64,000 bases of DNA, taken from NCBI RefSeq assembly GCF_028532485.1, contig NZ_CP116942.1, forward strand, positions 3,782,001 to 3,846,000, written 5' to 3'. Positions 16,728 to 20,997 of this stretch are shown here, piece by piece. The position numbers were made by a program, and so were the translations under genes. The stretch's first letter is position 1, and every line of letters begins with the position of its first letter. The notes beneath the pieces are model-generated. The model made no database searches. It had not been told where the DNA came from and saw only the letters and a program-made list of their open reading frames with translations. The DNA is from Iamia majanohamensis (GTDB lineage: Bacteria > Actinomycetota > Acidimicrobiia > Acidimicrobiales > Iamiaceae).

Positions 16728-17756
<1,029 letters not shown>

Positions 17757-17835: not shown

Positions 17836-18372
17836 CTAGGGCGCGTCGAGCGCCCGGTCGCGATCGAGCCGGGGCAGGGCCACCCGGCCCGTGCGCTGGA
17901 TCTCGCGGATGCCGAAGGGTCGCAGCATCTCCTCGAAGTCGTCCACCTTCGTCGGGTGGCCCTCGAGCGACACGGTGAGCTCCTCCTGGGTCACGGCCAG
18001 GATGCGGCCCTCGAAGATCTGCACCAGCTCCACCACCTGGCCGCGGGTCGCGGCGGGGGCGGTGACGCTGGCCAGCAGCAGCTCGCGCTCCACCGAGTGG
18101 CGGGGGTCGAGCTCGGTGATCTCGACCACGTTCACGAGCTTGTCGAGCTGCTTGACGATCTGCTCCAGGGGCGCCGACTCCACGTCGACCACGACGGTGA
18201 TGCGGCTGAAGTCGGTGTCCTCGGTCGGGGCCACGGCGAGCGAGACGATGTTGTAGGCCCGGCGGGAGAAGAGGTTGGCCACCCGGGCGAGCACACCCGA
18301 GCGGTTCTCCACCAGCACCGACAGCACGTGGTGGCGGACCTCCTGGCCCGGGACGGCGTCGCGCCGGGTCAT
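17836..18372 (-). CDS. ilvN: acetolactate synthase small (regulatory) subunit
   Basis: 178 aa. It is the regulatory subunit that binds valine and stimulates the IlvB catalytic subunit. The N-terminal ACT domain starts [19 protein letters not shown] near residue 13 and continues [18 protein letters not shown]; a C-terminal domain includes [20 protein letters not shown] and [14 protein letters not shown]-like sequence, ending [15 protein letters not shown], a conserved IlvN tail. Its ATG overlaps the ilvB stop by one base (TGATG), so translation is coupled and the subunits are produced in proportion. Confidence 0.95.
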
Positions 18373-20147
18373 CAGTGCCCCCCGTCGCCGGTGCCGACGC
18401 CGTCGCCGGCCTGGAAGGGCGGGACCTGGATCTCGTCGTTGGTCTTGCCCGACGGGACCATGGGGAAGACCTTCTCCCGGCTGTCGGTGCGGAACTCGAC
18501 CACCACGGGCCGGTCGTCGACCTCGTTGGCCTTGTCGATGGTGGGCTGGATCTCGTCGGGCGACTCGACCCGGAAGGCGACGCAGCCCATGGACTCGGCC
18601 CAGCGCACGTAGTCGGGCAGGTCGGGCGAGAGGTAGACCTCGGAGTAGCGCTCCTCGTAGAACATCTCCTGCCACTGGCGGACCATGCCGAGGTAGGCGT
18701 TGTTGAGGATGGCGACCTTCACCGGGATGCGCTCGGCCGAGGCCGTCACCAGCTCCTGGGCGGTCATCTGGAAGCAGCCGTCGCCGTCGACGGCCCAGAC
18801 CATGCGGTCGGGGCGGCCGACCTTGGCCCCGATGGCGGCCGGGACCGAGAAGCCCATGGTGCCCAGGCCGCCGGAGTTCACCCAGGTGTAGGGGTGGCGG
18901 AAGGTCCAGTACTGGCTGGCCCACATCTGGTGCTGGCCCACGCCGCTGGCGAGGATCGTGTCCTCGGGCACCGAGTCGCGCAGGTGCTCGAGGACCATCT
19001 GGGGCTTCAGGTGCTCGCCCTGCTGCGGGGCCTCGTAGGCGAGGGGGTAGCGCTCCTGCCAGCCGCTGATGGCCTGGTGCCACGGCGCCCGGTCGGGCGT
19101 GGTGGCCCCGTCGGCCTGGCGGCGGCGGACCGCGGCGACCAGCTCCTCGATGATGAGGCGGCAGTCGCCGTGGATGGGGACGTCGGGGCGGCGGACCTTG
19201 CCCAGCTCGGCCGCGTCGATGTCGACGTGGATGACCTTGGCGTCCGGGGCGAAGCCGTCGACCTTGCCCGTGACCCGGTCGTCGAAGCGGGCCCCGAGGG
19301 CGACCAGCAGGTCCGAGCGCTGGATGGCGGTGACCGCGGTGTAGTTGCCGTGCATGCCCGGCATGCCCAGGCAGAGCGGGTGGTCGTCGGGGAACGCGCC
19401 CCGGGCCATCAGGGTGGTGACCACCCGGATGTCGGTGAGCTCGGCCAGCTCCCGCAGGGCCTCGGCGGCGCGGGCCTTGAGCACGCCGCCGCCGACGTAG
19501 AGCACCGGTCGGCGGGCCGAGAGCAGCAGGTCGGCCGCGGCCTCCACCGCCTCGGGGTCACCCCCGGTGGCCGGGTGGTAGCCGGGCAGCGAGCGGGCCA
19601 CCTCCTCGTCGGTGGGCCACTGCCACCCGGTGGCGGAGCGGGGGTTGACCGGGTCGACGATGTCCTTGGGGATGTCGACGAGGACGGGCCCGGGCCGGCC
19701 GCTGGTGGCGAGGTGGAAGGCCTGGCGGATGACGAGGGGGATCTCGTCGGGGTCGGTGACGAGGAAGTTGTGCTTGGTCACCGACTGGGTGATGCCGGTG
19801 ATGTCGCACTCCTGGAAGGCGTCGGTGCCGATGGCCGCGGTCGGCACCTGGCCGGTGATGCAGACCATCGGGACCGAGTCCATGTAGGCGTCGGCCAGCG
19901 GCGTGACGATGTTGGTGGCGCCGGGCCCCGAGGTCACCATGGCCACGCCGGGGCGCCCGGTGGCGTGGGCGTAGCCCTCGGCCATGTGCCCCGCGCCCTG
20001 CTCGTGGCGGACGAGGATGTGGCGCATGGGCGAGTCGAGCACCGGGTCGTAGACCGGCAGGATGGCGCCGCCGGGCAGGCCGAACACCACCTCCACCCCC
20101 TCCATCTCGAGGGCGCGGATCAGCGACTGGCCTCCGTTCATCTCCAT
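18372..20147 (-). CDS. ilvB: acetolactate synthase large (catalytic) subunit
   Basis: 591 aa. This ThDP- and FAD-dependent enzyme condenses pyruvate with pyruvate or 2-oxobutyrate, the first common step of branched-chain amino acid synthesis. It begins MEMNGGQSLIRALEMEGVEV; the ThDP glutamate is in the RHEQGAGHMAEGYA motif near residue 50, GPGATNIVTPLADAYMDSVP near 75, the central FAD-binding domain includes MLGMPGMHGNYTAV-type sequence near 260, and the ThDP/Mg motif is GDGCFQMTAQELVTA with the downstream NNAYLGMVRQWQ near 485-500. ilvN follows with overlap. A leader peptide and an intrinsic-terminator-like hairpin lie 60-150 bp upstream. Confidence 0.95.
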   Translation of the reverse strand: MEMNGGQSLIRALEMEGVEVVFGLPGGAILPVYDPVLDSPMRHILVRHEQGAGHMAEGYAHATGRPGVAMVTSGPGATNIVTPLADAYMDSVPMVCITGQVPTAAIGTDAFQECDITGITQSVTKHNFLVTDPDEIPLVIRQAFHLATSGRPGPVLVDIPKDIVDPVNPRSATGWQWPTDEEVARSLPGYHPATGGDPEAVEAAADLLLSARRPVLYVGGGVLKARAAEALRELAELTDIRVVTTLMARGAFPDDHPLCLGMPGMHGNYTAVTAIQRSDLLVALGARFDDRVTGKVDGFAPDAKVIHVDIDAAELGKVRRPDVPIHGDCRLIIEELVAAVRRRQADGATTPDRAPWHQAISGWQERYPLAYEAPQQGEHLKPQMVLEHLRDSVPEDTILASGVGQHQMWASQYWTFRHPYTWVNSGGLGTMGFSVPAAIGAKVGRPDRMVWAVDGDGCFQMTAQELVTASAERIPVKVAILNNAYLGMVRQWQEMFYEERYSEVYLSPDLPDYVRWAESMGCVAFRVESPDEIQPTIDKANEVDDRPVVVEFRTDSREKVFPMVPSGKTNDEIQVPPFQAGDGVGTGDGGH

Positions 20148-20196
20148 GGCGTCTCGTGCTCCTGGTCTCGGGCGGGTCGGGTGGGTGGCGCGTGCG

Positions 20197-20265
20197 AAAA
20201 CGACGACGACCTCCCCGTGGGGAGGTCGTGGGAGCGCACGCGTGGGATGCCGGCGGCGTGCGCTC
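20197..20265 (-). promoter_or_regulatory. ilvB transcription attenuator: two hairpins and a short U-run
   Basis: On the minus strand the leader-peptide stop is followed by hairpin 1 (GAGCGCACG/CGTGCGCTC, 20232-20240 with 20257-20265), then a terminator-like hairpin with 11-bp perfect arms ACGACCTCCCC/GGGGAGGTCGT (20206-20229), then CGTCG and TTTT (20197-20200). This is the order expected of a ribosome-mediated attenuator: leader peptide, alternative hairpin, terminator. The U-run is short, as usual at this GC content. Confidence 0.7.
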
Positions 20266-20300
20266 TAGGGCCCGAGTACGAGGAGGGTGCCGGCGGTCAT
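20265..20300 (-). CDS. ilvB leader peptide (attenuation)
   Basis: An 11-codon frame on the minus strand, MTAGTLLVLGP then TAG. Four of eleven residues are branched-chain amino acids in a block (LLVL), encoded CTC CTC GTA CTC. It resembles the 'LVLG' leader peptides known before ilvB in other actinobacteria. The ribosome would stall in this block when charged Leu or Val tRNA is scarce, favouring an antiterminator. The stop codon overlaps the base of hairpin 1. No Shine-Dalgarno sequence precedes the ATG, but GACACT lies 8 nt upstream, so the RNA may be leaderless. An upstream in-frame GTG (20339) would give a 23-residue version. Confidence 0.7.
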   Translation of the reverse strand: MTAGTLLVLGP

Positions 20301-20308
20301 CGACGGGA

Positions 20309-20314
20309 AGTGTC
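20309..20314 (-). promoter_or_regulatory. predicted -10 element of the ilvBNC operon
   Basis: GACACT on the minus strand, 8 nt before the leader-peptide ATG, matching the NANNNT pattern and spacing seen before other leaderless starts. The rest of the 20148-20478 gap, between divergent ilvB and the membrane gene at 20479, shows TAGGGT near 20430 as a possible promoter for the latter and nothing coding. Confidence 0.35.
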
Positions 20315-20478
20315 GCGCGGCGGCGACGGGGCCGTCCACCCGGCTCGGCGCCCACCCCTGGTCAGGGGGCGGCGCGAGGGGCGTGGGACCCCTCCCCGGT
20401 CCCGCCCACGACGACCGGGGGCAGGGCTAGGGTCCGCCCCGGTCAGAGGTCGTCCACCAGTCACCCCGAGGTTGCCCG

Positions 20479-20997
20479 ATGACGCCCGTGTTCCTGGGTC
20501 GCATCCAGACCCGCATCTTCGTCGCCTTCACCGTCGGCGCCCTGTGGACGCTGCTCATCACGCCGTTCCTGCTCATCAACGCGCCGGGGCAGGGCGGCTA
20601 CAAGCTGGCCTTCACCCTCGACGACATCAACGGCAACAGCGGCCTGCTCGAGGCCTACAAGCTCGCCTTCGCCGCCCTGGTCATCGTCACCGTGTTCGGC
20701 TGCCTCGTCTGGGAGCCGATCTACCACGGGCTCATGCAGTTCCGGTGGGAGAAGGACTGGCCCGCGTTCTTCAACTTCTGGCAGGTCGTCCCCGAGGGGA
20801 TCACCACGTTCCTGCTGCTCCACGTCAGCTGGCTCAACCCGCTGCCGGACCTCGACGGCGACAAGAGCCAGTTCGTGCCCGTCCTGGCCTACATCTTCCT
20901 CTTCACGTCCACCTGGATCGTCACCTGGCTCTTCGCGAACGGCCCGATGAAGATCTTCTTCCTGCGCTGGCGCTTCAACGGCGGCCAGCTCGTCTGA
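20479..20997 (+). CDS. four-helix integral membrane protein of unknown function
   Basis: 172 aa, not recognised. Predicted membrane segments: FVAFTVGALWTLLITPFLL (near residues 14-32), LAFAALVIVTVFGCLVWEPI (62-81), FWQVVPEGITTFLLLHVSWL (100-119) and VLAYIFLFTSTWIVTWLFAN (134-153). Between the first two is a polar loop (YKLAFTLDDINGNSGLLEAY), and the C-terminus is basic and aromatic (KIFFLRWRFNGGQLV), probably cytoplasmic. It sits 11 bp before the pseudokinase gene on the same strand, so the two plus the FHA gene look like one operon; this suggests, without proof, that it is a membrane anchor or client of that module. Confidence 0.75.
   Translation: MTPVFLGRIQTRIFVAFTVGALWTLLITPFLLINAPGQGGYKLAFTLDDINGNSGLLEAYKLAFAALVIVTVFGCLVWEPIYHGLMQFRWEKDWPAFFNFWQVVPEGITTFLLLHVSWLNPLPDLDGDKSQFVPVLAYIFLFTSTWIVTWLFANGPMKIFFLRWRFNGGQLV

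Follow-up and report, generated by a model that had tools for sequence, protein, structure and literature searches.

Leader peptides with codons for branched-chain amino acids (BCAA), leaderless or nearly so and followed by a terminator, are known ahead of ilvB in Streptomyces and Corynebacterium (PMC1262725, PMC8079986, PMC10272879, PMC11857589), and a BCAA leader with a terminator is known in Mycobacterium (PMC13236596). Experimental precedents come from Mtb ilvB1 (PMC13236596) and C. glutamicum (PMC11857589). Changing the codons to alanine abolished induction of Mtb ilvB1NC (PMC13236596). In C. glutamicum, transcription starts 1 nt away from the start codon of the leader, and CUU and GUA serve as control codons (PMC11857589, PMC10272879). 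A first-pass annotation of the locus described here had pointed to LVLG-containing leaders in other actinobacteria; one such peptide is the S. lividans ilvL product, MRTRILVLGKRVG, which is leaderless (PMC8079986).

We describe a related element in Iamia majanohamensis and other Acidimicrobiia, a class for which the literature that we searched gave no earlier report of it. The window analysed is a 64,000-nt stretch of the I. majanohamensis genome (NZ_CP116942.1, 3,782,001 to 3,846,000), and positions are counted from its first letter.

Layout of the ilvBNC leader

Direct reading of the minus strand from 20338 to 20196 shows a promoter and an 11-codon leader, then a first hairpin that begins at the leader's stop codon, then a terminator hairpin trailed by UUUU, with ilvBNC next:

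20338-20333, minus: -35-like TGGACG, 18-nt spacer to the -10
20314-20309, minus: -10-like GACACT, with the ATG 8 nt further on, at 20300
20300-20265, minus: leader ORF MTAGTLLVLGP, from ATG to TAG (TAG at 20267-20265)
20285-20274, minus: control codons CTC CTC GTA CTC, encoding LLVL (GTA at 20279-20277)
20265-20256, minus: 5' arm of hairpin 1 (H1), GAGCGCACGC, its first base being the G of the TAG stop
20241-20232, minus: 3' arm of H1, GCGTGCGCTC, covarying with the 5' arm
20229-20206, minus: terminator hairpin ACGACCTCCC-CACG-GGGAGGTCGT, 10 bp with a 4-nt loop, 2 nt past H1
20200-20197, minus: terminator UUUU, inside CGTCGTTTTC, which trails the terminator stem
18372-20147, minus: ilvB, acetolactate synthase large subunit, first gene of the operon (NF005860 and TIGR00118 above cut-off)
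17836-18375, minus: ilvN, acetolactate synthase small subunit (NF008864 above cut-off; start approximate)
16728-17756, minus: ilvC, ketol-acid reductoisomerase (NF004017 above cut-off)

The Leu/Val-rich peptide of 11 residues that the first-pass annotation had placed before ilvBNC is read directly here, and its BCAA codons are kept in relatives. The core of H1 is AGCGCACGC/GCGTGCGCT (20264-20256 / 20241-20233), and inclusion of the stop-codon G brings it to 10 bp. The terminator arms had been read as an 11-bp perfect stem (ACGACCTCCCC/GGGGAGGTCGT, 20229-20219 / 20216-20206); the hairpin is present, but 11 bp would leave a loop of 2 nt, and the foldable stem is the shorter one listed above. The U-run does consist of four U only, several nt beyond the stem, which counts against the attenuator reading; a run this short is normal for Acidimicrobiia and not a defect.

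The attenuator-like region itself is borne out by direct reading of the minus strand, by tests against chance and by its conservation in relatives. The 153-nt leader folds with z = -3.7 relative to shuffled sequences, the genome of 4.58 Mb contains the terminator motif a single time, and between 16 and 24 kb in the window the ilvB-leader site is the sole terminator-like site on the minus strand. Known RNA families (riboswitches, T-box, ilvB-associated Rfam motifs) were rejected, as no Rfam covariance model matched the window at gathering score and none matched positions 20100-20400 up to E = 5. Beside the ilvBNC promoter, a divergent gene (20479-20997, plus strand) encodes a protein of 172 aa with hydrophobic stretches and without an NCBIfam match. 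Because this upstream gene is divergent, the terminator at 20229-20206 is not that of an upstream gene.

Conservation among Acidimicrobiia

Loci containing ilvB were taken as the best 30 from 61 related genomes searched (61/61 matched), together with 80 from named genome contigs. These relatives are Acidimicrobiales and other Acidimicrobiia, and their sequences are related by descent, so that counts are not independent. The complete architecture was found in 88 of the 97 distinct ilvB upstream regions, all parsing as the same element with BCAA codons and both stems conserved, the comparison having been proposed at first pass; 11 codons is the commonest leader length among the 88. A covariance model built from the element (R2) matched 44/47 sampled genomes of the same order, many of them outside its building set, and 99/396 of the phylum. 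Some weak phylum-level matches lack a leader ORF and are likely to be chance or plain terminators.

No attenuator was detected before ilvB at four loci (L026, L063, L082, L106). At L026 and L082 the sequence before ilvB resembles the closing part of a different coding gene (perhaps ilvD), which suggests that ilvB there lies inside a longer operon. One clade (L069, L070, L078, L079, L094, L100, L102, L108) keeps the leader and both hairpins, with TTTT replaced by GTTTCGCGTGCGG or a close variant. Across the flanks of loci L001-L110, 64 hairpins of at least 8 bp are followed by TTTT; 61 have the ilvB-leader core and the other three are also ilvB-leader-like. The possibility that this is an ordinary terminator of these genomes was rejected, since the motif is unique in its own genome and the rest of each locus has almost no hairpin-TTTT combinations.

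Promoter and predicted leaderless start

A -10 hexamer (NANNNT) stands 5-11 nt ahead of the start codon in 87/88 relatives, at 7-8 nt in 63 of those 87; such a hexamer occurred in 61/435 control windows. The class-wide -35 profile is TTGCC, 17-18 nt upstream of the -10. From this spacing, in the window and in relatives alike, transcription is predicted to start at the ATG or 1 nt before it, as the earlier suggestion of a leaderless start implied; at 7-8 nt the distance from promoter to start codon fits that expected of leaderless mRNA.

Control codons

In 68/88 leaders read in frame, positions -5 to -3 relative to the stop hold nothing but Leu, Val or Ile; the two other frames gave no such case. 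The leaders are also strongly biased in their choice of valine codon: GTA accounts for 139 of 193 (72%) leader Val codons, whereas the ilvB genes at these loci use it for 0.8% of their valines, and at least one GTA is present in 87/88 leaders. Seven genes of the window contain 288 Val codons, none of them GTA. Genes for tRNA-Val with the anticodons UAC, GAC and CAC occur once each in the genome. Theory, as outlined in PMC1183508, holds that attenuators use sensitive codons, and a rare GTA at the sensing position is consistent with this. Changes of ilvB leader codons in S. coelicolor were reported to be without effect, according to a citation in PMC1262725, and this counts against the attenuator reading.

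An isoleucine sister copy before leuB-ilvE-cimA

The I. majanohamensis genome contains exactly one further R2 match, at C1:3768937-3769022 on the minus strand, 13 kb outside the window (positions 2538-2623, minus, of locus L142, which spans C1:3766400-3770000). It precedes leuB-ilvE-cimA, and its leader reads MRPSAPVAIIA, or is one codon longer if begun from a GTG 8 nt past TATGCT. CimA makes citramalate in the first step of a route to isoleucine. At least two Ile residues occur among the last seven leader residues in 13/17 leuB/cimA copies versus 2/56 ilvB leaders; the leuB/cimA genes were identified by tblastn, with reference sequences excised from the loci themselves. Because the leuB/cimA leaders carry Ile codons instead, the leader codons track the pathway product on the same RNA frame, as expected if they sense that product. 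We found no paper on a leader-peptide attenuator for cimA, and the putative isoleucine attenuator before leuB/cimA appears to be new as far as the literature was searched.

Covariation and geometry of the hairpins

Both hairpins are supported by comparison of duplex energies between true and permuted partners (z = -12.3 for H1, -6.8 for the terminator). When all segment pairs were scanned against permutations, with segments H1_3 and H1_3gap overlapping in sequence, no third pair reached the level of these two, and pairing of H1_5 with the terminator 5' arm was weak (z = -2.3). In a model-based alignment, which is fitted to the structure, 12/17 pairs changed on both sides compared with 7.7 in shuffles; RNAalifold on a plain MAFFT alignment, where H1 is misaligned, recovered the terminator alone.

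Almost every copy has the start of the H1 5' arm at the stop codon. The gap between H1 and the terminator is 0-4 nt in 74/76 (mean 1.5, s.d. 1.4 nt), whereas the distance from terminator to ilvB has an s.d. of 27.5; gaps of 0-4 were also found in 24 ilvB copies from other lineages and 15 leuB/cimA copies, and of 0-5 in Actinomycetes. When stems were extended maximally, zero nucleotides were shared between the hairpins in 81/88 Acidimicrobiia copies and the remaining seven shared 1-3. The window hairpins shared none, with their gap staying at 2 nt. Lack of sharing extends to the 15 leuB/cimA copies and, largely, to the 24 ilvB copies of other lineages and to 38 Actinomycetes loci, including ones encoding the exact Streptomyces peptide. 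This general absence of base sharing is, within the literature that we searched, newly described.

The locus had first been read as showing the classical order of an attenuator. Leader, hairpin, terminator and ilvBNC do follow in that order, but mutually exclusive structures are not part of it: the proposed search for them found H1 and the terminator hairpin together in the minimum-energy fold and no third covarying pairing. An overlapping antiterminator was sought by ribosome-masked partial-transcript folds, the permuted duplex scan and maximal stem extension, and by each of these none was found. We also set aside a terminator lengthened by the H1 3' arm together with the tail that precedes the U-run (single folds only, no covariation, z = -0.6), pairing of a leader GCCGGC with the H1 loop (within the genus only, absent class-wide) and a role of the CCTCC/GGAGG core in mimicking a Shine-Dalgarno sequence (wrongly spaced for ilvB, and replaced by a different core in the leuB copy). 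In the window fold, inspection by eye shows that CTCGGGC in the leader (20300-20265) could pair with a GCCCGAG immediately ahead of ilvB, a match confined to the genus (window, L002, L003).

A candidate mechanism and its alternatives

Classical attenuation relies on an antiterminator that captures bases of the terminator. The element has an ORF of product codons, whose translation is predicted, a terminator before the first gene, evident from sequence and covariation, and in H1 a structure so placed that it would be melted by a ribosome standing on the stop codon, though not by one at the control codons. An antiterminator sharing terminator bases was found neither in the window nor in 81/88 relatives, and there is no third helix. 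On these sequence features, the element is very probably a ribosome-mediated transcription attenuator of ilvBNC; that termination occurs in vivo, and in which direction the operon responds, we infer.

The following sequence of events would account for the arrangement. A ribosome would initiate on the leaderless mRNA, transcription having started at or next to the ATG. With ample charged Leu- and Val-tRNA it would reach the stop codon, where its footprint, which extends about 10-12 nt downstream of the stop, would cover the 5' arm of H1; with H1 melted, the adjacent terminator hairpin could form and transcription would end before ilvB. With these tRNAs short, above all the one reading GUA, the ribosome would stall 3-5 codons earlier and H1 would stay folded. 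A folded H1 abutting the terminator (usually 0-4 nt away) may then hinder its complete closure into the RNA exit channel: with a helix standing 0-4 nt before its base, the terminator would have no single strand left to thread from the channel. Read-through would follow. H1 should carry the signal because a stop-codon ribosome covers its 5' arm and a ribosome stalled at the control codons does not, and it should oppose termination because the direction of response is known from Mtb and C. glutamicum. Physical adjacency would be the simplest route because no bases are shared. We know of no experiment in which an abutting hairpin blocks an intrinsic terminator, and the adjacency step, drawn from geometry, is put forward as a plausible proposal rather than a probable one. 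Equally tentative, and if anything slightly more so, is its generalization to a phylum-wide attenuator in which an abutting, non-sharing hairpin antiterminates, one device being recoded with Leu/Val or Ile codons for ilvBNC and leuB-ilvE-cimA.

The element might instead be an attenuator whose hairpins compete, through branch migration, for a few overlapping boundary nucleotides, as proposed for C. glutamicum, where mutations support the role of a GCC trinucleotide shared by the adjacent hairpins (PMC11857589). Exactly one nucleotide is shared on extension in 9/38 Actinomycetes loci and 7/24 ilvB copies from other lineages, which favours such competition. Its absence from the window, from most Acidimicrobiia copies (81/88) and from all 15 leuB/cimA copies argues against it, as does the terminator 5' arm, which is predicted to be free before the 3' arm is made (mean pairing 0.11, above 0.5 in 0/88), and we consider boundary competition rather unlikely. 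Pause hairpins synchronize ribosome and polymerase in the trp and his leaders, and on that model H1 might do no more than hold RNA polymerase for the ribosome, making the switch one of timing and not of antitermination by H1. The position of H1, where a stop-codon ribosome would melt it, suits such a role, but pausing gives no means of preventing the terminator when the ribosome stalls and leaves the constancy of the H1-terminator gap unexplained; we regard this as unlikely, and a little more so than boundary competition.

Two further readings were considered. Groups of neighbouring hairpins have been described as terminators, as outlined in PMC8355165, so H1 could aid termination and a ribosome at the stop could favour read-through; ilvBNC would then be on under ample Leu and Val, the reverse of what was measured in Mtb and C. 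glutamicum (PMC13236596, PMC11857589), which makes this very improbable. We give least credence to a constitutive terminator behind GTA and CTC codons kept for low RNA structure or as a nucleotide signal and not for tRNA sensing. Preservation of the string TCGTA at the nucleotide level, even in Actinomycetes, would fit that reading, but the frame control (68/88 versus 0) and the exchange for Ile codons at the same place in leuB/cimA leaders speak for the codons being read as codons.

Comparison with known systems

The ribosome-mediated attenuator that we favour would extend this form of BCAA control to Acidimicrobiia, which are largely uncultured; it comes with a small, searchable RNA model and adds a matching candidate isoleucine attenuator on leuB-ilvE-cimA. 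Among BCAA-gene leaders of Actinobacteria, the LEU element and the leuA leaders, such as the Leu-rich peptide before S. lividans leuA, are comparable as leaders (PMC1262725, PMC8079986); they differ in preceding leuA, in a proposed pseudoknot and in lacking a typical intrinsic terminator, and we claim no structural relation. The ilvL leader of S. lividans and S. coelicolor ilvBHC resembles our element in its LVLG motif, downstream hairpins and U-run terminator and, if the start predicted here is right, in being leaderless (PMC8079986, PMC1262725). In Streptomyces-type loci (L232, L236 and L250 encode the identical peptide) the last codons contain the H1 5' arm and the H1 loop contains the stop. 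The H1 of Acidimicrobiia does not begin until the stop codon, and the terminator sequence is different.

Mtb ilvB1NC likewise has a terminator before ilvB and singles out GUA, with L-V-V-I control codons in its uORF; its terminator and antiterminator are described as mutually exclusive (PMC13236596), unlike the hairpins here, which share no bases. The 'fast' attenuator of C. glutamicum ilvBNC, or ilvB-II motif, resembles our element in its adjacent antiterminator and terminator hairpins, in its CUU and GUA control codons and in a start site of the kind predicted here (PMC11857589, PMC10272879), but there GCC is common to both hairpins and a third, antiantiterminator hairpin has been proposed, while our element has neither the sharing nor a third conserved helix. 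If adjacency suffices, the textbook need for base sharing between antiterminator and terminator would not be general, and the switching step of actinobacterial ilvB leaders, on which the C. glutamicum and Mtb models differ, would become testable.
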